Below are positions 15,211 to 28,311 of a DNA stretch of 35,453 nucleotides, piece by piece. Both the position numbers and the translations under genes were made by a program. This DNA comes from a virus: the IMG/VR virus record IMGVR_UViG_3300044621_001801, positions 1-35,453 of that record; one strand, written 5' to 3'. The stretch's first letter is position 1; every line of letters starts with the position of its first letter. The notes under the pieces are model-generated. The model did no database searches, was not told the origin of the DNA, and worked only from the letters and a program-made list of their open reading frames with translations.

Positions 15211-15392
15211 ACGCGTTTCCTCATCTCGTACTCAACAACGTCTTCCAGTCGGTACACGATCCGCGCCCGGGTTCCTTCCCCGAGGCGAACGTGTGCCGGC
15301 CCCTTGCGCAAACGCCGCCACTCGGCCAGCGTGCGGGCAGTGATCCCCCAGCGCTTGGCCAGTTCAGCGGGCGTCAGGACCGCCGAGGTCAT
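15207..15392 (-). CDS. MerR/AlpA/excisionase-type helix-turn-helix protein
   Basis: 61 aa. The sequence LTPAELAKRWGITARTLAEW followed by RRLRKGPAHVRLGEG and RIVYRLEDVVEYE is the classic winged-helix layout of HTH_17/AlpA proteins: helix-turn-helix, wing, then the D(V/I)xxY helix. Such proteins act as excisionases or transcription regulators. With no integrase in the window, a regulatory role is as likely as excision. It sits between the RecT-like gene and the small membrane protein, joined by ATGA overlaps. Confidence 0.85.
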   Translation of the reverse strand: MTSAVLTPAELAKRWGITARTLAEWRRLRKGPAHVRLGEGTRARIVYRLEDVVEYEMRKRV

Positions 15393-16147
15393 AGCGCACC
15401 ATCCCCGGCTTCTGCGGCGGCGGGCGCCGGCACTGGCGGCGGCTCCGACTCGGCGCGGATCTGATTGGCGCGCGCCTGGGCCGCGGCGATGGCCTCCTTG
15501 CGGTCGTCTGCCGGCAGGCTGCGCATCATCGGCCGTACCAGTTCCAAGCCTTCCAGCGTGGCCGTCATGGCGATCTGCTCCAGCACGGCATCAATCGTGA
15601 CAGTGGGGGCTGGCGGTGCGGGCGGTGCGATCTCGTCCACGGGGCCCATGTCGCGCATGCGGACGGGTTCGCGGGGCTCCATGTCGCCGGCTTCCTCGGG
15701 CGTGTAAGTACCGACCACGCAGCCCGGAAACACGGTGCGGATGCCCTCGGAGATGACGCGCGCGCGCAGCATCTGCCGCGGGTACTTGCGGTGCATCTCG
15801 TTGGTGATGCCGGCTCGCTTTGCGCGCTCGGCGGTCCAGTCAATGATGACGGTGCCGCCGGCCGGGTGCGAGAACTCGGCCTCGACCTTTGCGTCGCCTA
15901 TCTCTAGCCACTTGACGCGACCGCCGGCGGCGAGGAACCGCGCCATCATGGCGTCGGCCTTCAGTGTGGGCCTGCCGTTAATGACGTGGTAATCGCGGGC
16001 AGCAATCGCCGGGTGCAAGCCCTCAGCCTGCGCGACGAGCATGAGTGCCAGAGCCTGGTCCGGGGTTTTCACCCCGAAAAGGCCCGAGCGCGCGACTGCA
16101 ACCGCCATCTTTTCGACGTCGGCCACCGGCACAAGGGCCCCGCTCAC
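15389..16147 (-). CDS. RecT/Bet-like single-strand annealing protein
   Basis: 252 aa from GTG 16147, the start that overlaps the upstream stop. Key segments are ARSGLFGVKTPDQALALML, EGLHPAIAARDYHVINGRP, LKADAMMARF and YPRQMLRARVISEGIRTVFPG, ending in the YTPEEAGD motif typical of phage RecT-family annealing proteins. The C-terminal ~70 residues are Pro/Ala-rich. It would coat and anneal 3' single strands made by the YqaJ exonuclease encoded two genes upstream in the same operon, giving phage recombination and end repair. It could also be called Erf-like, but the motif order favours RecT. Confidence 0.85.
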   Translation of the reverse strand: MSGALVPVADVEKMAVAVARSGLFGVKTPDQALALMLVAQAEGLHPAIAARDYHVINGRPTLKADAMMARFLAAGGRVKWLEIGDAKVEAEFSHPAGGTVIIDWTAERAKRAGITNEMHRKYPRQMLRARVISEGIRTVFPGCVVGTYTPEEAGDMEPREPVRMRDMGPVDEIAPPAPPAPTVTIDAVLEQIAMTATLEGLELVRPMMRSLPADDRKEAIAAAQARANQIRAESEPPPVPAPAAAEAGDGAL

Positions 16148-16401
16148 AGCGGCCCCGCCTTCTGCGGCTGCGGACGCGGCGGCATTGCCTTCACGTCCTC
16201 GATCACGATGCCCTCGATACCGCACTGCATGAGCTCCTCCGGCGTCGGGATCCGGGCCTCAACCGTCTCGGGGCGGATGTGCCGGATGGCGGTGTTCTTG
16301 TGCGGCGCGCGGATCAGACGCTTCTGGTTGCCCACGGTCACCAAGAAAACGTGGGACTTGCTCTCCCGCTTCTTGCGGGGCTTCTTCTCGACTTCGCTCA
16401 C
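16144..16401 (-). CDS. Small basic protein between exonuclease and annealing protein
   Basis: 85 aa from GTG 16401. The N terminus is strongly basic (KKPRKKRESKSHVF), followed by a beta-rich part (FLVTVGNQKRLIRAPHKNTA), a helix and a Pro-rich tail. It has GTGA overlaps on both sides and lies inside the recombination gene pair. It may assist recombination or bind DNA, but that is only context; I do not recognise the family. Confidence 0.65.
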   Translation of the reverse strand: MSEVEKKPRKKRESKSHVFLVTVGNQKRLIRAPHKNTAIRHIRPETVEARIPTPEELMQCGIEGIVIEDVKAMPPRPQPQKAGPL

Positions 16402-17039
16402 TTTGCAATCCTCTCAGACGCGAGACGCTTCAGCGCCTCGACTTGGTTGCCGACCTGCTCCAGAAAAGAAGTGACCTCGGCCTGCAGGTCGGCGATGAAG
16501 CCGGGGTCACGGTTGATGCGCTGCACGTAGAGTTGAAGCTCTGGCGGCATGCGCGGGTCGAACGAGATGAAATCGCACCAGTCGCGGCCGGCAATCCACA
16601 ACTGGCCCTGCACCTGCGCTAGGTGCTCTGCCGGCATGCCGCTGGTCAGCGTCTCAATGTGGTTGCGGGAATTGAACGGGCACTTGATCTCAATCAGCCC
16701 GTCCCAGTCCACCAGGCCGTCAGGGCTGCAGCCCGCCTGCAGCGTGTCGTGCTGGACAAACCCGACGTCCTCCACGATCACGCCGCGCAGGGACTGGTAC
16801 GCGCGGCGGGCTTCGTCTTCCTGCTCGCGGCCCCACGACATGGCGGCCGTGTCCAGTCGCTGTGCCGGCTCGCCTGTCAGGCGCTCGACCACCAAGTCCG
16901 CAGCATAGTCGTCGCGGACCGAGAGGTAGCCCTTGCCGTCTTTGCGCTTGGCGATGATGTCTTTGAACCTGCTGGCGGTGGCTTTGCCGGCGCGGGCGCG
17001 GAACCAGTCGGCGGTGCGTTGTTCGAGGTCGGCGGTCAT
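16398..17039 (-). CDS. YqaJ-type (lambda exonuclease-like) recombination nuclease
   Basis: 213 aa. ATG 17039 is preceded by a perfect GGAGG, which fixes the start; the open frame upstream is Arg/Ser repeat read-through. The nuclease core is visible: GCSPDGLV (D107), then LIEIKCPF (E117, K119), with [11 protein letters not shown] before and [20 protein letters not shown] after as the conserved Gln/Trp motif. It degrades 5' strands of double-stranded DNA ends in partnership with the RecT-like protein. The length is typical of phage YqaJ proteins. Confidence 0.92.
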
Positions 17040-17557
17040 GCAAACCTCCTGCGAAACTCTGCGGCTTGAGCGGCCCACGCTGCGCCCATCGCTGCGTCCA
17101 ACGCTGCGTCCAACGCTGCGTCCCACGTTGCGTCCCTCGCTGTGGCCCCCGCTGCGGCCCTCGCTGCGTCCCACGCTGCGTCCCACGCTGGGTCCCTCGC
17201 TGCGTCCCACGCTGCGTCCCACGCTGCGTCCCTCGCTGCGTCCAACTCCTCGTCTGTTGCCTCGCCGTTAGCGTGCCGCTCGGCCACATCCAGTGCGGCC
17301 AACGAGCGCTGGTCCGTCATTAGGTGCTGGACTTGTCTAGCGCACCAGACTGCGTACAGACGCGCCTCGCGGTCAATGCCTTCGCAGGTGCGCAGGCACC
17401 ACAGGGCGGCGTCCAGACCGTTACTGTCAAGAATAGCGACCAGTGCCAGCGGCTCGTCGTCGGCTTGCGTCTTGCCGAGATGACGCAGGAGCTTGGTCCA
17501 GCCGTTAGCGCACGGGCGGTGGGCGCGGATTTTGTTAAGAGTGGTGTAAATGGTCAT
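17036..17557 (-). CDS. Early phage protein with DAAW/DAAR tetrapeptide repeat tail
   Basis: 173 aa, ATGA-overlapping both neighbours. Residues ~1-105 form a conserved helical domain ([52 protein letters not shown]), known from many phages without an assigned function. Residues ~106-163 are about 13 tetrapeptides of the form [DA]-A-A-[WRL], made by a 12-base tandem repeat, and would form a long amphipathic helix or solenoid. The end EFRRRFA is conserved in similar proteins. Confidence 0.75.
17083..17245. repeat. 12-base tandem repeat (GCTGCGTCCCAC type), about 13 units
   Basis: On the plus strand the units read GCTGCGTCC followed by AAC, CAC or CTC, with a few variant units (GTTGCG, GCTGTGGCC, GCTGCGGCC, GCTGGGTCC). 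Each unit encodes four residues on the minus strand, so unit gain or loss never breaks the frame. It is a coding minisatellite. Confidence 0.92.
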
Positions 17558-18468: not shown

Positions 18469-18499
18469 CGCGTCACTCCTTTTTGTTGATGGTGTTGCC

Positions 18500-18528
18500 A
18501 TTCTGCGATGGTGTCGGCGCAATGTCAA
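18500..18528 (-). promoter_or_regulatory. Leftward early promoter
   Basis: On the minus strand TTGACA (18523-18528) is a perfect -35 box. Seventeen bases on, CAGAAT (18500-18505) matches TATAAT at four of six positions. It points into the minus-strand operon starting at 18468. A GGCAACACC box lies just after the -10 and GCAACCAC boxes just before the -35, so it is probably repressor-controlled. Confidence 0.75.
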
Positions 18529-18578
18529 GCAACCACGCGCAACCACATGCAGGCTCTGTCTAGGTGTTTTCCCGGGTG

Positions 18579-18608
18579 TTGCGTGCCGGGGCTGAGATGG
18601 TGCAGAAT
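18579..18608 (+). promoter_or_regulatory. Rightward early promoter, probably giving a leaderless transcript
   Basis: CAGAAT at 18603-18608, the same -10 as the leftward promoter, has TTGCGT 18 bases upstream. The ATG of the HTH gene begins at 18615, six bases after the -10 box, which is where transcription should start. No ribosome site precedes the ATG. This matches the leaderless layout known for lambda cI from PRM. Confidence 0.55.
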
Positions 18609-18614
18609 CGCAAC

Positions 18615-18833
18615 ATGAACACCAAACGAGCGGGGCCGGCCGCTGAAATCATCCGGCAACTTGGCGGCGTGCGGGCTACGGCTCGTCTGCTGAATGTGCA
18701 TCCGTCCACCGTCACGCGGTGGGTTGAGGGGCGGGGCTGGATCCCGGCGCGCTACGGCGCCGCGGTGCTGGCTGCGGCGCGAGAGCGCGGGTTGCCGATC
18801 ACGGCTGAGACGCTGTTGGAGTCGGCAGCATGA
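18615..18833 (+). CDS. Cro/YdaS-like helix-turn-helix regulator
   Basis: 72 aa from ATG 18615. Residues ~10-45 (AAEIIRQLGGVRATARLLNV followed by HPSTVTRWVEGRGWIPARY) are a clear helix-turn-helix of the small phage Cro-like type with the (G/W)IPAR ending. The likely role is an early regulator binding the GCAAC boxes in front of it. No CI-size repressor is present on the other side of the control region, where the operon starts directly. It is coupled by ATGA overlap to the next gene. Confidence 0.85.
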   Translation: MNTKRAGPAAEIIRQLGGVRATARLLNVHPSTVTRWVEGRGWIPARYGAAVLAAARERGLPITAETLLESAA

Positions 18834-19372
18834 TGCCCCCGTATCCCATTCCTAGTTACCTGTCGAAGGTGTGGGAGTCGCGCACCGAGGAGGAGGGCGA
18901 CTGCCTGATCTGGCGCGGCGTGTATGCCAACAGAACGACGCCGGCCGTGTTCGTCAGCAAGCTCTCCAATCCCAAGTACATGACCGTGCGGCGCGTGTTG
19001 CTGGAGGCTCAGCGCGGCAAGCAGCTGCCGTCAAACCTGTTCGCCACCACGTCGTGTGGGAATTCGCGGTGTGTAGCGCCTGCGCATGTGCGGCCTGGCA
19101 CGGTGAGCGGCATCGCTCGTGCTGCGGTGGCCCGCGGGGCGTGGGACAACCCTCTGCGCGCCGAGAAGATCGCCCGCGCCAAGCAGTCGCAATCGCCCCT
19201 GACATGGGAGGACGTCGAGAGGATCCGGGCGGCGAAGTCGGCGGCTATCGCTGCAAAAGAGACGGGCGGCAAGGTGAGCAAATCGACCTGCGCCCTGATT
19301 CGTGCCGGCAAGCGCTGGCGAGTGAGGCCCGCGGATCCGTGGGCTGCGGCTATGTGGAGGTTGGCGGCATGA
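18830..19372 (+). CDS. Degenerate HNH-like protein
   Basis: 180 aa, ATGA-overlapping the HTH gene. Residues ~24-90 follow the HNH plan of phage proteins (CLIWRG, then VRRVLLEAQRGKQLPSN, then CGNSRCVAPAHVRPGT). The zinc-like C76, C81 and H86 are kept, but the catalytic His that normally sits in an AHR motif reads VRR (R54-R55). A helical basic C-terminal half (WEDVERIRAAKSAAIAA, TCALIRAGKRW) looks like a second DNA-binding motif. It is probably a DNA-binding protein that has lost HNH cutting. Confidence 0.65.
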   Translation: MMPPYPIPSYLSKVWESRTEEEGDCLIWRGVYANRTTPAVFVSKLSNPKYMTVRRVLLEAQRGKQLPSNLFATTSCGNSRCVAPAHVRPGTVSGIARAAVARGAWDNPLRAEKIARAKQSQSPLTWEDVERIRAAKSAAIAAKETGGKVSKSTCALIRAGKRWRVRPADPWAAAMWRLAA

Positions 19373-19797
19373 AACAGATAGACGGGTACGAAACTCTGTA
19401 CCGCAAGGTGGGTCGTCAATATGTCGCTGTGGGCACGGCACGCGACATGTATAGGAGCTACGAGAATGTTCTGTACGCCGGCCAGTGGCGCATGGAGTAC
19501 TGTCCGCGCGATGGCCGCGGCAGGTACTGGTACGACGTGCGGCCAGACACCGCCTCGTGGTCTGCGGCGGCGATGCTGGCTGAGGACGCAATGATTGAAG
19601 CCATTGACAAGGCTCGATTCGCGCATCCGTCGTTCGGCGTCGGCGTGAAGATGACTCGGCGTCAGCAGAAAGCCGTTGCCGATGCGCGTGCAATTTTGGC
19701 CGATGCAGGTCTGCTGGACCCGCATTGGTGGACGCATCGCAGCGCCGGGGAGATTGCGAAGGCCGGGATTGATGCCGTCAGGGAGTTCAGCGCATGA
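19369..19797 (+). CDS. Unknown early protein, 142 aa
   Basis: ATG 19369 overlaps the previous stop, with a GGAGG nearby. The N-terminal part is aromatic and beta-rich (YETLYRKVGRQYVAVGTARD, WRMEYCPRDGRGRYWYDVRP). The C-terminal part is helical (KMTRRQQKAVADARAILADA). No family or catalytic motif is recognised. Confidence 0.65.
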   Translation: MKQIDGYETLYRKVGRQYVAVGTARDMYRSYENVLYAGQWRMEYCPRDGRGRYWYDVRPDTASWSAAAMLAEDAMIEAIDKARFAHPSFGVGVKMTRRQQKAVADARAILADAGLLDPHWWTHRSAGEIAKAGIDAVREFSA

Positions 19798-20291
19798 AAC
19801 CCACTCGTGGCCGAAAAACCCTGCGCGAGGTCATGCAGGATCACCAGCGCAGCGAGGACACCCTAGCCGCCATCTGGGGCAAGCCGCGGCGCGAACTGCC
19901 GGTCCCGGCGGCTCCGAAAACGCGGGCCAAGCGCAACCCATCGCCGGCAGAACAGCGCGAGCCAAGCGAGGCGGACATTCTGAAGGCCGTCATGTCGCTG
20001 TTGAAGCGTCACCCGAAGGTAGCGCAGTGCTGGCGGCAGAACTCGGGGACGTTTCAAGAGCGCAACCGGGACGGAAGCGTTAGGTATATCCGCGCCAACA
20101 CTCAGCGTGGCATGAGCGACATCATGGGCGTGCTGAGCGATGGCAGGACGCTGGCCGTTGAGGTCAAGTCGCGCACCGGGCGCATGCGGCCTGGGCAGGA
20201 AGAGTTCCTGCAGACGATTCGCAGCGCTGGCGGCGTGGCTGGGGTTTGCCGCAGTGTGGAAGATGCCGTCAGGTTGCTGGAGGGGGCATGA
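19794..20291 (+). CDS. VRR-NUC domain nuclease
   Basis: 165 aa, ATGA-overlapping both neighbours. The C-terminal ~100 residues form the VRR-NUC fold: NSGTF near 83-87, G106-MSD109, then TLAVEVKS with E123 and K125, and Q135 in RPGQEEFL, completing the PD-(D/E)XK-type active site. Phage stand-alone VRR-NUC proteins act on branched or structured DNA. A Holliday-junction or flap nuclease in replication is plausible here, just upstream of the primase-helicase. The basic N-terminal ~55 residues look unstructured. Confidence 0.9.
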   Translation: MKPTRGRKTLREVMQDHQRSEDTLAAIWGKPRRELPVPAAPKTRAKRNPSPAEQREPSEADILKAVMSLLKRHPKVAQCWRQNSGTFQERNRDGSVRYIRANTQRGMSDIMGVLSDGRTLAVEVKSRTGRMRPGQEEFLQTIRSAGGVAGVCRSVEDAVRLLEGA

Positions 20292-20859: not shown

Positions 20860-21365
20860 GAAAACGCTCCTCCTACCGCCCCCGAGGCGTCAACCCCACA
20901 GCCCACCTCGTGGCCATCACAGGTGCCGCCCTACTCAGCCGCGACGACCGCACAGTGTGGGCTCTGCAGCTGCGCGACGCACTCGACGCCGTGGCTTGCG
21001 GCAAAGCCCAGCGCCAGCACTGGGGCGTGATCTTCGACGCCGTCAACTTGGCCGAGGAACTCACGCGCATGGGCTTGGCGTTAGACCCTGACGGCATCAT
21101 CAGCGGCGCGCAAGAGGCCTGCGCAGAGATCGTGCGCCGGCAGCAGGCTACAGGCACGCGCGCAGTGCGGGCCGGGGAACTGGCCGCGCTGCGGTGTCTG
21201 GAAGCGGCGATGATCGACATCCTGGCCGCCGTCACGCACAGCGAACGGTTTCGCGCCGAGGAGCGGATCCGGGCTCGCGCTGCGACCGCGCGGGCTGGCG
21301 GGATTGCTGGGGCGCAGGTTATCGACGCTGGTTTCCTGGAGCGCGGCGCGACGCCTGCCCCTTGA
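20856..21365 (+). CDS. Conserved helical early protein (MRKRSxYRPRGV family)
   Basis: 169 aa from ATG 20856. The basic N terminus MRKRSSYRPRGVNP is shared with a conserved group of phage proteins. The rest is helical (LQLRDALDAVACGKAQRQHW, FDAVNLAEELTRMGL, GELAALRCLEAAMIDIL). The function is unknown; it precedes replication genes in related phages as I recall. The last 20 residues are low-complexity Ala/Gly. Confidence 0.7.
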   Translation: MRKRSSYRPRGVNPTAHLVAITGAALLSRDDRTVWALQLRDALDAVACGKAQRQHWGVIFDAVNLAEELTRMGLALDPDGIISGAQEACAEIVRRQQATGTRAVRAGELAALRCLEAAMIDILAAVTHSERFRAEERIRARAATARAGGIAGAQVIDAGFLERGATPAP

Positions 21366-21423
21366 CCCCTTCCCCACTCACAAAAACCGCGGCAAACTAG
21401 CCGCCCTTCGAGGAGCCCCACCG

Positions 21424-23775
21424 ATGCTCGATTTCCGAGGCCTGGCCGACCGCCTGCTGGCCGATGCCGAAACGCACGTAACCCGCTGGCTGCCCGAGGG
21501 CAAGCGACGCGGCAACGAATACAAAATCGGCTCACTGGCCGGCGAGCCTGGCGAGTCCATGTCCATCAACCTGCGCACCGGCCGGTGGGCGGATTTCGCC
21601 AGCGGCGAGCGGGGCGGCGACCTGATTGACCTCTATGCCGCCATCCACCACATCGAACTCGCCGAGGCTTACCGCGAACTGGACGGGGATCGCAGCGTAG
21701 CCGTCAGCGCACCGCCCCGCCGCGAGGCGCCGAAACGCTCGGTGATCACGCCTGTGCCGGCAGAGTCTGCGGACTGCGACTGCGTCCACCCGGACTACGG
21801 GCCGCCTGTGCGGACGTGGTGCTATCAGGACGGCAATGGCGACGTTCTCGGCTACGTGGCCCGCTACGAGCCCAAGGGCGCCCGCAAGCAAATCATCCCG
21901 TGGACCTTCACCGCTGACGGCTGGGGCCGCGGATCGTGGCCCGCACCGCGTCCGCTGTACCGCCTGCACGACCTGGAGGCCCGCCCCGACGACCCGGTGC
22001 TCATCGTCGAGGGCGAGAAAGCCGCGGACGCCGCAGCTGCGTGGGCGGATCCGTACGCTACCGTCACCTGGCCCGGTGGCTCACAGGCCCTGCATCTCGC
22101 AGACTGGCGCCCGGTGTTCGGCCGGCAGATCCTGCTGTGGCCCGACGCCGACGACGCGGGCCGCATCGCGATGCTGCGTCTGGCCGAGATACTGCGCCCG
22201 CACTGCACCATCATCAAAATCATCAACCCGACGGGTCAGCCTGACGGCTGGGACGCGGCCGACGCGGACTTTCGCACCTGGACCGAGGCGCGAGCCTGGC
22301 TGCTGCCCCGGGTGTCGCTGCTGGACGTCCCGCCGCCTCCACCGCCTGCGCCACCGCCGGCAACGAAGCCGCGGCCAGCACAACAGCCGACAGGCGAGAA
22401 AACCGCAGAGCAGGCCGTCAATGACCGCGATGCGTCCTCACTGCAGCCGTCGGACTGGTTTTCCCGGTATGCCTACGTGATTGCGGACGACTCTTTCTTT
22501 GATCTCGTGGAGCGAAGCGAGATCGGCCGCAACGCTTTTAATGCACTTTACCGGCACGTTAGATGCAATTCGATACATTCTCAGTCATCGGGGGCGGCCC
22601 GCAGGATTGAGGCGTCAGTCAGCTTTGACGAGAACCGCCACGCGATGAACGCCAAGATTATCAGCGGCGTGACCTACGCTCCCGGCCGCACTGTGCTGGT
22701 CGAGCACGTCGGGCAAGCTTACGGGAACAAGTGGCGTGACGGCCGGCCTGTTATCGATGACGCGGGCGACCCCGGTCCGTGGCTGGCGCACGTCGAAAAA
22801 CTCGTTCCCGAGCCCGAGGAACGGAATCACATGTTGGACGCGTTCGCGTATAAGGTTCAGAACCCCGGCGTGAAAATAAACCACGCGCTGCTTATCGGCG
22901 GGGTTCCTGGTGCCGGCAAAGACAGCATGATCGCGCCCTTGCTTTACGCTATCGGCGGCCAGACAAAACAGAATTGCGTTTCCGTTGACCCGGCGGAACT
23001 GTCGCAGCCGTGGGGGTATTACCTTGAGAACGAGGTCATTATCTTTAACGAGCTACGTCAGTCGGAGGCTACCGATAGGCGAGCGCTGGAGAACAAACTT
23101 AAACCGATACTCGCGGCGCCTCCTGAGCTACTGACCGTTCAGCGCAAGAACGCCCACCATATACAGGTGGTGAATCAGGCGCTTGTGCTGGCCATGACTA
23201 ACTATCGCGACGCTATCGCTATTCCGTCAGACGACCGCCGGTGGTTCGTGATCTGGACCCACGCGCAGCGCATGGAAGAAAGCGAATCGCGTTCGCTGTG
23301 GGCCTGGTTCAATGCTGGCGGCCTGGAGGCCGGCGCGCGCTACCTGCGCGAGCGGGACGTCTCAAGGTTCCAGCCTGGCGCTACGCCGCCGTGGACGCCG
23401 GCAAAGCAGATCATGGTGTCCAGCACGCGCTCGCACACTGAATCGTGGATCATCGACCGCATCGAAAAACGCGTCGAAGAATTCCGCTGGGGCGTCATCA
23501 GTGGCCCGTGGGCCCTCATGGTGGACCGCCTGCAGACCCATGCCCCGCCGTCAGTGCGCTTGACTCAGCAGGCCCTGCAGCACGCGCTCGCTGAGGCCGG
23601 CTGGCTGGACTGGGGCATGTGCAAGTCGCGGCTGAATCCGAGCTCGCGGCACGTCTTCGCTGCGCCGGACTGGCGCGGATCCAAGAGCGAAGCCCGGGAT
23701 CTGTGCGAAACGCACTTCGGCGCAAGCCGCAGCGCCAGCGTCCACGAGTTCCGCAAGGCTGCCGGCGGGGAATAA
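21424..23775 (+). CDS. Primase-helicase (TOPRIM plus superfamily-3-like helicase)
   Basis: 783 aa. The start at ATG 21424 has GAGGAG upstream; the frame is open earlier but lacks a site. Residues ~1-95 are a primase-associated region (GGDLIDLYAAIHHIELAEAY). A TOPRIM core follows, with IVEGEKAADA near 193 and LLWPDADDAG near 239. A Pro-rich linker at ~300-330 leads to the helicase, with Walker A GVPGAGKDS at 493-501, Walker B-like VIIFNELRQSE near 538, and the sensor-like LAMTNYRDAIAIPSDDRRW. It probably primes and unwinds at the phage origin. It is the last gene of its operon. Confidence 0.88.
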   Translation: MLDFRGLADRLLADAETHVTRWLPEGKRRGNEYKIGSLAGEPGESMSINLRTGRWADFASGERGGDLIDLYAAIHHIELAEAYRELDGDRSVAVSAPPRREAPKRSVITPVPAESADCDCVHPDYGPPVRTWCYQDGNGDVLGYVARYEPKGARKQIIPWTFTADGWGRGSWPAPRPLYRLHDLEARPDDPVLIVEGEKAADAAAAWADPYATVTWPGGSQALHLADWRPVFGRQILLWPDADDAGRIAMLRLAEILRPHCTIIKIINPTGQPDGWDAADADFRTWTEARAWLLPRVSLLDVPPPPPPAPPPATKPRPAQQPTGEKTAEQAVNDRDASSLQPSDWFSRYAYVIADDSFFDLVERSEIGRNAFNALYRHVRCNSIHSQSSGAARRIEASVSFDENRHAMNAKIISGVTYAPGRTVLVEHVGQAYGNKWRDGRPVIDDAGDPGPWLAHVEKLVPEPEERNHMLDAFAYKVQNPGVKINHALLIGGVPGAGKDSMIAPLLYAIGGQTKQNCVSVDPAELSQPWGYYLENEVIIFNELRQSEATDRRALENKLKPILAAPPELLTVQRKNAHHIQVVNQALVLAMTNYRDAIAIPSDDRRWFVIWTHAQRMEESESRSLWAWFNAGGLEAGARYLRERDVSRFQPGATPPWTPAKQIMVSSTRSHTESWIIDRIEKRVEEFRWGVISGPWALMVDRLQTHAPPSVRLTQQALQHALAEAGWLDWGMCKSRLNPSSRHVFAAPDWRGSKSEARDLCETHFGASRSASVHEFRKAAGGE

Positions 23776-23808
23776 AAAAAGCCCCCGGAGATTGCTCAAT
23801 CCGGGGGC
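23774..23808 (-). terminator. Rho-independent terminator of the right-hand minus operon
   Basis: Read on the minus strand, a GC-rich hairpin (arms GCCCCCG and CGGGGGC plus an inner GATT/AATC helix, bases 23781-23808) is followed directly by seven U (bases 23774-23780). It ends transcription from the small minus-strand genes. On the plus strand there is no U run, so it is at most a weak terminator for the primase operon. Confidence 0.85.
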
Positions 23809-23866
23809 GCAAGCCGGCACAGGAACCGGCACAGGAGGAGACGCGTTCCGATGCAACGCGGCTCAA

Positions 23867-23929
23867 TTATAGGTCCAGCGCGAGCGCGACGGCAAGCGCC
23901 ACCGCGATAGCCAGCAGGGCGGCGATCAT
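23867..23929 (-). CDS. 20-aa hydrophobic micro-protein
   Basis: The peptide MIAALLAIAVALAVALALDL is a single membrane helix. Its ATG overlaps the stop of the upstream 49-codon gene (ATGA), and it is the last frame before the terminator. It could be a small membrane effector or simply a leftover coupled frame. The lack of any helix-breaking or charged residue before the final Asp makes a membrane peptide likely if it is translated. Confidence 0.45.
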   Translation of the reverse strand: MIAALLAIAVALAVALALDL

Positions 23930-25978: not shown

Positions 25979-26165
25979 GGCAGCGGCTCGCCCGGGCCAG
26001 GAGCTGGGCGCCCGGGCCGTCAGTGTGCTGATGATCAGTGTGCGGAGGGGTGGGAGTGGGGTGCGGCGGAGACCCCCCGGCCAGGGCCCGCGTTAGGCGC
26101 CAAAGTGTATGGAGCCCCCGCCCAAAATTTTTTTCTCACGCCCCACACCATTCCCGCAACACATG

Positions 26166-26171
26166 TAATAT
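26166..26171 (+). promoter_or_regulatory. Possible -10 box of the late operon, leaderless layout
   Basis: TAATAT at 26166-26171, preceded by TG, lies seven bases before the ATG of the terminase small-subunit gene, which has no ribosome site. A GCAACAC box (26157-26163), like those of the early control region, overlaps it closely. No good -35 box is visible, so the call is weak. Confidence 0.3.
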
Positions 26172-26178
26172 CTCGCCC

Positions 26179-26784
26179 ATGTTCCGAGACCTCCCCCTAG
26201 CGCCGAGAGAGCTGAAGGCCACGCCTGACGTGTTGGAGCGCATATACCAAGCGTCGAAGCTGGGATTGCGCGGCGACAGTTTGGCGTTAAGGGCTTCGCT
26301 GCTGCCGGCAGAGTTTGCGCGGCTGAAGCTCATGGACCCGATGGCGGAGATGGCGGAGTTGAAGGGCAGGGCTGATGCTGAGGGTGACCTGGCGGTCGTG
26401 CTGATGGATGCGGCGCAGGCTGGGGACGCGAAGGTGGCGTTGGAGGTGTTGAAGCACCGGCACGACTGGGTGGCGAAGCAGAGTGTGCAGGTGGACGTGA
26501 ATTCGCAGATCAGTGTGGTGGCGGCGTTGGAGGCTGCGAATGGGCGGTTGCAGCGTGGGCTGGCGGTGGAAGTGGAGGATGCGATACCCGTGGAAAGAAT
26601 AGGCGCCGCCGTTCCGGTGGTGTTAGCTGCCGGTGAACGGACTGCGGCAGTAACGGCGGCGCCGCCCCCGTTGGAGCGACGCGCTGGTAAGATAGCCGCG
26701 CCGGCTCAGGAAGGCGGTATTGCGCCCGATGGGTTTGCGCCGAAGGCGCTGCCGGCAGAAATGGCCGTCGAACGGGGAGTGTGA
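26179..26784 (+). CDS. Terminase small subunit
   Basis: 201 aa. The first ATG with protein-like sequence is 26179 (MFRDLPLAPRELKATPDVLE); an upstream in-frame start at 26038 would add low-complexity residues. Residues ~15-60 form a helix-turn-helix region (RIYQASKLGLRGDSLALRAS ... LLPAEFARLK), and ~65-105 the helical oligomerisation part (ADAEGDLAVVLMDAAQAGDA). The C-terminal half is Ala/Pro/Val-rich. It recognises the packaging start site and stimulates the large subunit encoded next, whose GTG begins immediately after the stop. Confidence 0.8.
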   Translation: MFRDLPLAPRELKATPDVLERIYQASKLGLRGDSLALRASLLPAEFARLKLMDPMAEMAELKGRADAEGDLAVVLMDAAQAGDAKVALEVLKHRHDWVAKQSVQVDVNSQISVVAALEAANGRLQRGLAVEVEDAIPVERIGAAVPVVLAAGERTAAVTAAPPPLERRAGKIAAPAQEGGIAPDGFAPKALPAEMAVERGV

Positions 26785-28311
26785 GTGCAGAAGCCGATAT
26801 ACACCGCAGGCGAAGAGCAGGCGCTGATGACGCGCCTGTGGGAGCCGCGTATTCGGGACGACCCCGAGGCGTTTGTGTTGCTGGCGTTTCCGTGGGGGCA
26901 GCCGAACACGCCGTTGGCGGCGTTTGACGGGCCGAGGCGGTGGCAGCGGCGGGTGTTGCGGATGATGAGGGATCACATCGCGGCGAACCGCGGGCAGTTG
27001 GAGATGGACACCCTGCGGGCGGCGGTGTCCAGCGGGCGCGGGATCGGAAAGTCGGCGCTGGTGAGTTGGCTGATTTTGTGGATGCTCACGACGCGGATTG
27101 GCAGCACGGTGATGGTCAGCGCGAACAGCGAGGCGCAGCTGCGCGGCGTGACGTGGGGTGAGCTGACGAAGTGGTCGGCGATGCTGATTAATTCGCACTG
27201 GTGGGAAATCAGCGCGACAAAGCTCATGCCGGCGCAGTGGCTGACGCAGATTGTTGAGCGAGACCTGAAGAAAGGAACCCGTTACTGGGCGGCCGAGGGC
27301 CGGCTGTGGAGTGAGGAGAACCCGGATGCGTATGCCGGCACTCACAACATGGACGGGATGATGCTGATATTCGACGAGGCGTCGGGTATCCCGGATCCGA
27401 TCTGGGCGGTGGGCGCGGGGTTTTTCACGGAGAATATCCTCGACAGGTATTGGCTGGCGTTTTCGAACCCGCGCCGCAACGAAGGGTATTTCTTCGAGTG
27501 TTTCCACGCCAAGCGGGACTTCTGGAAGAACATCCAGATTGATGCCCGCAGCGTTGAGGGCACGGACCAGCGCGTTTACCAGCAGATCATTGACGAGTAC
27601 GGCGAGGACTCGCGCGAGGCGCGGGTTGAGGTGTACGGGGAGTTTCCTGCTGCCGGCGAAGACCAGTTTATTACGCCGCGACTGGTGGACGACGCGGTCA
27701 AGCGGCCGGCGTACAAGGATCCCACGGCGCCGATTGTGCTGGGCGTGGACCCCGCGCGCAGTGGCGCGGATTCGACCGTGATTGTAGCCCGTCAGGGGCG
27801 TGATCTGGTGGCGATTCGGCGGTATCGGGGCGATGACACGATGACCGTGGTGGGCCACGTCATTGAGGCCATTGAGGAATTTCAGCCTGCGCTGACGGTG
27901 ATTGACGAGGGCGGGCTGGGGTATGGGATTTTGGACCGCCTGACGGAGCAGCGGTACAAGGTGCGCGGCGTGAATTTTGGCTGGAAGGCCAAGGCCAGCG
28001 TGATGTGGGGCAACAAGCGCGCCGAACTGTGGGGCGCGCTGCGCGACTGGCTGAAATCGGCTCATGTGCCGGCAGACAGGCAGTTGAAGGCCGACCTGAC
28101 GGGGCCGAAAACGAAGCCCAACAGCAGCGGCACGGTGTATTTGGAGTCGAAGAAAGACATGAAGGCTCGTGGCCTGGCGTCTCCGGACGCTGCCGACGCG
28201 CTGGCATGCACATTTGCGTTCCCTTTGGCCCACAGGGAGTACAATGCCAAGGAGCAGCGCCGCTCAATCAGTGATCGCGGCGTGGTTTCGGCGGGTTGGA
28301 TGGCTCACTGA
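26785..28311 (+). CDS. Terminase large subunit (packaging ATPase and nuclease)
   Basis: 508 aa from GTG 26785, directly after the small-subunit stop with GGGGAG upstream. ATPase: Walker A SGRGIGKS (83-90), Walker B MLIFDE (193-198, E198 catalytic). Nuclease, RNase H fold: GVDPARSGAD with D322, VIDEGG with D374, and the C-terminal SPDAADAL with D468/D471. All catalytic acids are present. It pumps DNA into the prohead through the portal and cuts the concatemer. Length and motif order fit headful-packaging podoviruses. Confidence 0.95.
   Translation: MQKPIYTAGEEQALMTRLWEPRIRDDPEAFVLLAFPWGQPNTPLAAFDGPRRWQRRVLRMMRDHIAANRGQLEMDTLRAAVSSGRGIGKSALVSWLILWMLTTRIGSTVMVSANSEAQLRGVTWGELTKWSAMLINSHWWEISATKLMPAQWLTQIVERDLKKGTRYWAAEGRLWSEENPDAYAGTHNMDGMMLIFDEASGIPDPIWAVGAGFFTENILDRYWLAFSNPRRNEGYFFECFHAKRDFWKNIQIDARSVEGTDQRVYQQIIDEYGEDSREARVEVYGEFPAAGEDQFITPRLVDDAVKRPAYKDPTAPIVLGVDPARSGADSTVIVARQGRDLVAIRRYRGDDTMTVVGHVIEAIEEFQPALTVIDEGGLGYGILDRLTEQRYKVRGVNFGWKAKASVMWGNKRAELWGALRDWLKSAHVPADRQLKADLTGPKTKPNSSGTVYLESKKDMKARGLASPDAADALACTFAFPLAHREYNAKEQRRSISDRGVVSAGWMAH

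Follow-up and report, generated by a model that had tools for sequence, protein, structure and literature searches.

In phage lambda, recombination genes are transcribed in one direction from PL, and Cro and then the replication genes in the other direction from PR, with cI and rex lying between PL and PR. Leaderless phage messages are known from a few repressors. The DNA analysed here (hereafter the window), 35,453 bases long with 62% G+C, makes up an entire virus record, and no named phage matches it closely. Its early region is similar to that of lambda in having recombination genes leftward and a Cro-type gene followed by replication genes rightward. In contrast to lambda, the window has its two promoters set back to back, and the searches detected no cI.

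In the cI/cro switch of the telomere phage PY54, the cI and cro mRNAs are leaderless, according to the accessible part of the report (PMC4488713). This switch resembles the window in its divergent control region, its all-alpha Cro relatives and its leaderless mRNAs, which are putative in the window; however, PY54 is temperate, CI is present, and its Cro binds one palindromic operator of 16 bp (PMC4488713, accessible part). In CP-933P, YdaS is a Cro analogue with a footprint that overlaps both divergent promoters, opposite the leaderless paaR2 (PMC8630535). As far as the accessible text of that report goes, paaR2/ydaS shares with the window a YdaS-type Cro analogue, a short divergent intergenic region (97 bp in CP-933P) and a leaderless regulator on one side (a probable one in the window), the protein covering both promoters in CP-933P; the differences are that the CI-like PaaR2 is present, that PaaR2 is the leaderless one, and that the operators are 18-bp palindromes of other sequence (PMC8630535). 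Whereas the operators described in these parts of the two papers are palindromes, GCAAC boxes 1 and 5 of the window (Table 1) are not palindromic. The locus offers a Cro-type control region that seemingly works without a CI partner in an apparently non-lysogenic phage group and is swapped as a module between relatives, with conserved leaderless starts indicated at the early regulator and at the head of the late operon.

Gene content and lifestyle

The rightward genes are ordered HTH, HNH-like nuclease, resolvase-like nuclease, primase-helicase, and then terS and terL (Table 1). Portal, head-closure and DNA-ejection families were also detected in the window. The terL product shares 71% identity with its counterpart in Phage DSL-LC05 and 37% with the one in Salmonella phage epsilon15, and a DNA search found neither a near nor a distant match to the control region in named phages. 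On the leftward side, the 132-aa gene gave no useful family match in Pfam, NCBIfam or PHROG; its orthologues in sister loci are 58-86% identical.

Integrase (PF00589) and serine recombinase (PF00239) were found in none of 15 records, the window included, some of which may be fragments, with the controls positive. No CI-like repressor was found opposite the HTH gene, where leftward gene 1 has no HTH family match, and in an HTH_3 search of the window, with several small ORFs outside the scan, the 72-aa HTH protein was the sole match. The sequence-only reading had reported that no CI-like gene is encoded beside the HTH gene, and these searches, which found neither a CI-like gene nor an integrase, bear this out. 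The virus is probably a non-lysogenic podovirus. Elsewhere in the window, at 23780-23895 on the minus strand, a leftward promoter-like sequence (TTGCCG-18-TATAAT) is followed by a GC-rich hairpin and a T run resembling a terminator, which might produce a small RNA.

Table 1. Positions and supporting evidence of genes and control elements in the window
Feature	Position	Strand	Evidence or remark
RecT-like (leftward recombination)	15389-16225	-	phrog_561, 9.4e-21
RecE-like exonuclease (leftward recombination)	16398-17222	-	phrog_149, 8.8e-46
Leftward operon gene 1, 132 aa	18070-18468	-	ORF and translation; Shine-Dalgarno AAGGAG 18476-18481
Left repeat arm	18482-18506	-	over leftward promoter core; holds box 1
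GCAAC box 1	18494-18498	-	inside left repeat arm
Leftward promoter	18500-18528	-	TTGACA (18528-18523), 17 nt, CAGAAT (18505-18500); consensus scan
GCAAC boxes 2 and 3	18529-18543	+	starts 18529 and 18539, 10 bp apart
GCAAC box 4	18578-18582	-	overlaps weak rightward -35
Right repeat arm	18602-18626	+	over rightward promoter core and first HTH codons; holds box 5
GCAAC box 5	18610-18614	+	inside right repeat arm
72-aa HTH regulator, carph-isopro/YdaS/P22-Cro-like	18615-18833	+	profile and fold matches
HNH-like endonuclease, rightward operon gene 2	18830-19372	+	phrog_1872, 7e-9; phrog_826, 3.3e-7
Endonuclease/Holliday-junction-resolvase-like gene	19794-20291	+	phrog_93, 7.6e-20; phrog_5702, 9.5e-15
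Primase-helicase	21304-23775	+	phrog_1156, 3.2e-26; DUF5906 above cut-off
Late operon start	26156-26181	+	GCAAC 26156-26160, -10 TAATAT 26166-26171, 7 nt, ATG 26179
terS	26179-26784	+	position and homologues
terL	26785-28311	+	phrog_2, 5.7e-42

The 72-aa regulator

The HTH protein scores 51 bits with the carph-isopro HTH profile NF046037 (cut-off 38), 25.7 bits with YdaS PF15943 (below its cut-off of 30) and 22.3 bits with P22 Cro PF14549 (below its cut-off of 30.2), a cut-off passed by the regulator of locus L064 with 35.4 bits. In a single-sequence AF2 model (pLDDT 84.9) the protein has five helices, and the top Foldseek match of this model is 3bd1, Cro of prophage Xfaso 1 (TM 0.62/0.67, E 0.12), the best matches having TM 0.59-0.67. 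The Cro-like character proposed earlier is thus supported, since NF046037 is above cut-off and the best fold match, at E 0.12, is a prophage Cro; based on these profile and model matches, "Cro-like" may be kept as a working label for a protein that does not appear to belong to the P22 Cro Pfam family.

Among 64 relatives' records, the carph-isopro profile was over cut-off in two (the window and the record of L013) and weaker in others, and of 594 matches to a pattern of the HTH protein in genome_contigs none was a relative. A homologue in MW202722 (36.8% identical) has one GCAAC upstream and a homologue in a Synechococcus phage has none. No papers on carph-isopro were found in the open-access literature, of which our coverage is incomplete.

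Divergent promoters and the inverted repeat

From the spacing of the leftward promoter, its +1 would lie near 18493. On the rightward side, a -10 CAGAAT (18603-18608) is followed by CGCAAC and by the ATG at 18615, and the weak -35 (TTGCGT, 18579-18584, three of six positions) was read by eye and is absent from the output of the consensus scan. Both promoters carry CAGAATnGCAACA exactly, and no third place in the record matches it with fewer than two mismatches. The CAGAAT that had been reported as common to the two promoters is confirmed as part of this shared stretch, and the description of the region as a compact divergent early control region is supported.

The strongest feature of the region, missed by the sequence-only reading, is not the count of GCAAC but an inverted repeat of 25 nt with 20 of 25 positions matching (18482-18506/18602-18626), which covers each of the two divergent promoters from about -13 to +12. 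A match of 20/25 was reached in none of 3000 shuffles; for 13-mers, the observed value of 12 was reached in 17 of 3000; both tests were chosen after the repeat had been noticed. Although the repeat is inverted between the promoters, neither arm is itself palindromic. In seven close sequences none of the 50 arm columns varies, and eight of the 95 columns between the arms do; however, HTH identity is 98.6% or more in every close relative, so the invariance of the arms says little about constraint. The two-armed pattern TTGCnATTCTG-82/112-CAGAATnGCAA was found in six stretches of viral_contigs, all on contigs of the known close relatives.

The region 18491-18617 may well be an autoregulated, Cro-type early shut-off switch without CI, in which binding by the HTH protein is predicted; we put this forward tentatively, as the reading we favour. 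Upon infection both early operons would fire, the good leftward promoter driving the recombination genes and the weaker rightward promoter driving the HTH gene and then the nuclease and primase-helicase genes. The rightward mRNA would begin at or near the HTH AUG and be translated without a leader. The most likely target of the HTH protein is the 25-bp element that overlies the two promoter cores in inverted orientation, with box 1 and box 5 falling between the -10 and the +1 of their respective promoters; as it accumulates, the protein would cover both cores and shut both operons, as a Cro-like autoregulated brake. The analysis shows the sequence features, the repeat, the gene content of the operons, the exchange of the module and the recurring -10/ATG spacing; from these we infer promoter use, leaderless translation, binding and repression.

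The same shared core might instead be a promoter specificity element, recognised by host RNA polymerase together with a factor from the phage, the HTH protein being an activator or unrelated. In each promoter the repeat is centred on the stretch from -10 to +12, and the rightward -35 is poor, as if helped; however, the families scanned included neither a phage sigma factor nor a polymerase modifier, and the -35 on the leftward side matches the consensus. We regard such an element as improbable.

GCAAC boxes in the control region

Five GCAAC pentamers are present in 18491-18617, counting both strands, as had been stated. When the intergenic region underwent 5000 dinucleotide shuffles, GCAAC reached five copies in 16 of them; however, some pentamer or other reached five copies in 257 of 5000, and the count is for this reason weak, or at best modest, evidence. 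GCAAC is also common in the record as a whole (165 copies in 35,453 bases, about one per 215 bp), of which two further stretches likewise contain five copies in 127 bp.

Conservation of the boxes in related phages, which had been named beforehand as a check, holds for some of them only. Boxes 1, 4 and 5 are invariant in the seven aligned close sequences, whereas box 2 is changed to GTAAC and box 3 to GCAAT or GCAAA, and changes among such close relatives argue against these two boxes as putative operators. The proposal of five equal boxes serving as operators is not upheld, given this decay of boxes 2 and 3 and the occurrence of the GCAAC repeats of relatives as a 5' leader beside different regulators.

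The GCAAC 5' leader of relatives

In uncultured phage contigs, a near-invariant leader, CATCGCAACACGCAACC(C)GGAG, starts 6-7 nt after a sigma70-like -10. It is carried by loci L243-L288, L290, L031 (8006-8026, minus strand), L062, L063, L064 and L153. Scanning viral_contigs for ATCGCAACACGCAACCnGGAG gave 47 stretches, and a laxer pattern 48. In 40 of the 41 unique copies the A comes 6-7 nt after the end of the -10, and the base preceding the A is C in all 41, though the pattern left that base free. The 39 readable downstream proteins fall into 30 clusters, and the promoters into 17. The single copy in the genome collection lies on a gammaproteobacterial contig assembled from a metagenome. At the sensitivity used, the whole leader was not found in named phages or in plasmids, each giving one partial match; it had no match in Rfam (four sources), and its folding was no better than that of shuffles. 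The letters GCAACACGCAACC were not found in the open-access literature, as far as our incomplete coverage extends. Judged by these contexts, the GCAAC repeats of relatives look like a reused 5' leader that is independent of regulator type.

A comparable case is that of the start-associated sequences of Cluster K mycobacteriophages, which, in the accessible part of the paper, likewise consist of a short, nearly invariant element that carries a ribosome site and recurs ahead of many phage genes (PMC3203893). They differ from the leader in sequence, and the leader of the relatives begins at the putative transcription start; the window has no full copy of the leader.

GCAAC as the operator of the carph-isopro protein was at first favoured on account of L064, where a P22_Cro-like regulator adjoins a divergent region with several GCAAC. 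The link was dropped, and L064 no longer counts as evidence for it, because the same GCAACACGCAACC stretch stands beside an HTH_3-like regulator in L062 and L063, and, in L031, behind another promoter and beside another gene.

It is possible, though unlikely, that the GCAAC of the window are not operators and represent a 5'-end or leader preference of this phage group, the HTH protein binding something else. Occurrence of the leader next to several types of regulator as well as in other places, the decay of boxes 2 and 3, and the single mismatch-free ATCGCAACA of the window, at 18607, the HTH start, all fit such an origin; on the other hand, box 1 and box 5 both precede the putative +1 and fall outside the leader, and the best full-leader match, also at 18607, has 7 mismatches in 21 and is at least equalled at five other sites in the record. 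A broader idea, which we consider rather improbable, is that the 5' end of the mRNA is a control layer of its own, with the regulator and terS leaderless, other operons of the relatives bearing CATCGCAACACGCAACC(C)GGAG, and the boxes of the window being a remnant or relative of it. If this were true, messages with and without the leader could differ in translation once the host ribosome is altered in the course of infection.

Probable leaderless start of the HTH gene

The ATG at 18615 stands 6 nt past CAGAAT with no Shine-Dalgarno between them, and the stretch from CAGAAT through CGCAAC to the ATG (18603-18614) is identical in seven sequences. The message probably starts at the AUG or a few bases from it and would be translated without a leader; judged by the -10/ATG spacing, the coincidence of the HTH start with the expected transcript start, noted earlier together with the lack of a ribosome site, is thus probable. 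The signature is not rare, since 10 ORFs of the record that begin with ATG and encode at least 50 aa have it, the HTH gene and terS included. Support for leaderless starts comes from the recurrence of the spacing in relatives. When the DNA ahead of the resolvase gene was scanned in 118 loci, first-gene regulators with a -10 at 6-8 nt before ATG were found in L064, L068, L113 and L140, and the regulators of L062/L063 have CAGAAT-CCGCCAC-ATG; these leaderless-like regulators are of different HTH types. The regulator of the sister clade, which has an AGGAGG ribosome site, is a counter-case. Sites of L028 and L066 from the same scan were not taken as regulator starts.

Upstream in-frame starts are also present (ATG 18597, GTG 18600 and GTG 18564). 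If translation began at ATG 18597 or at one of the upstream GTG codons, behind a normal leader, CAGAATCGCAAC would be partly coding; such a start would be compatible with the frame being open from 18564 and with a GGGG a few nt before ATG 18597. We consider it quite improbable, however: the same CAGAATnGCAACA occurs in the non-coding leftward promoter, the HTH domain homology begins at residue 9 of the 72-aa form, and the regulators of relatives show a -10, 6-8 nt and ATG.

Start of terS and the late operon

The first gene of the late operon, terS, is probably leaderless too, to judge from its spacing and the lack of a Shine-Dalgarno. Of 106 loci, 10 were dropped for too little upstream DNA and 61 were excluded for an N-terminus off the pattern or for having no long frame; among the 30 unique upstream sequences selected, a -10 lies at 6-7 nt in 23 (6 nt in 17, 7 nt in six), and a Shine-Dalgarno is present in one. 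A first set had given 17/22 for the spacing and 0/22 for the Shine-Dalgarno, and with automatic choice of the terS ORF a -10 lay 5-8 nt from some start in only 37 of 78. The promoter hexamer and its spacing are kept, and the bases between the -10 and the ATG vary. No report of a conserved leaderless terS start was found in the open-access literature, with incomplete coverage. Such a start, conserved across many relatives, makes it possible to test whether leaderless translation is selected for in phages. Relatives with a terS N-terminus as little as 41% identical still have a leaderless-like start (TAACAT-6-ATG in L059). In L055, L033, L034 and L048, a further ATGTTCCGC... start, accompanied by a -10-like hexamer, lies about 60-70 nt before the start of terS and resembles a duplicated leaderless start leading to a short upstream ORF. 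Leaderless genes have also been described in Deinococcus-Thermus, in the accessible part of one report (PMC12340547).

A GCAAC box had been noticed before the terminase genes at 26157; it is present, at 26156, and control of early and late genes by one regulator had been suggested from it. Control of the late operon by the HTH protein through this box is very improbable: the box is kept in the window's own clade only and missing from the sister-clade terS upstream regions, it lies upstream of the -10, unlike boxes 1 and 5, and about 0.2 GCAAC are expected within 40 bp (165 in 35,453 bases), that is, about one time in five. A common regulator is thus left unsupported.

Exchange of the control module among relatives

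The close relatives of the window comprise six loci with HTH proteins 98.6-100% identical. Sister phages, with primases 65-68% identical, keep the leftward gene, the resolvase-like gene and, where seen, terL (up to 96.7%); in the slot of the HTH gene, however, they have a winged-HTH-like regulator preceded by its ribosome site, and different intergenic DNA. In 32 unique stretches of 146 nt beside the leftward gene, GCAAC occurs three to five times in each of the three from the window's clade, whereas the 29 from outside it have none (24 stretches), one (four) or two (one). Since the leftward gene is orthologous while the regulator and the intergenic DNA differ, the regulator and its DNA sites form one exchangeable module, swapped together in the sister phages. 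In lambdoid immunity regions the regulator and its sites are likewise exchanged together.

L015-type loci carry, about 85-110 nt to the right of the leftward gene start, the palindrome CAGAAT-N9-ATTCTG, and some have GACTGCCGGCAGTC; these are candidate operators of the winged-HTH-like regulator of the sister clade. In L062 (860-960), L063 (1980-2075), L256 and L284, GGACA..TGTCC palindromes lie near an GCGCAGAAT promoter and adjoin an HTH_3-like regulator or copies of the leader, and are probably the operator set of another type of switch.
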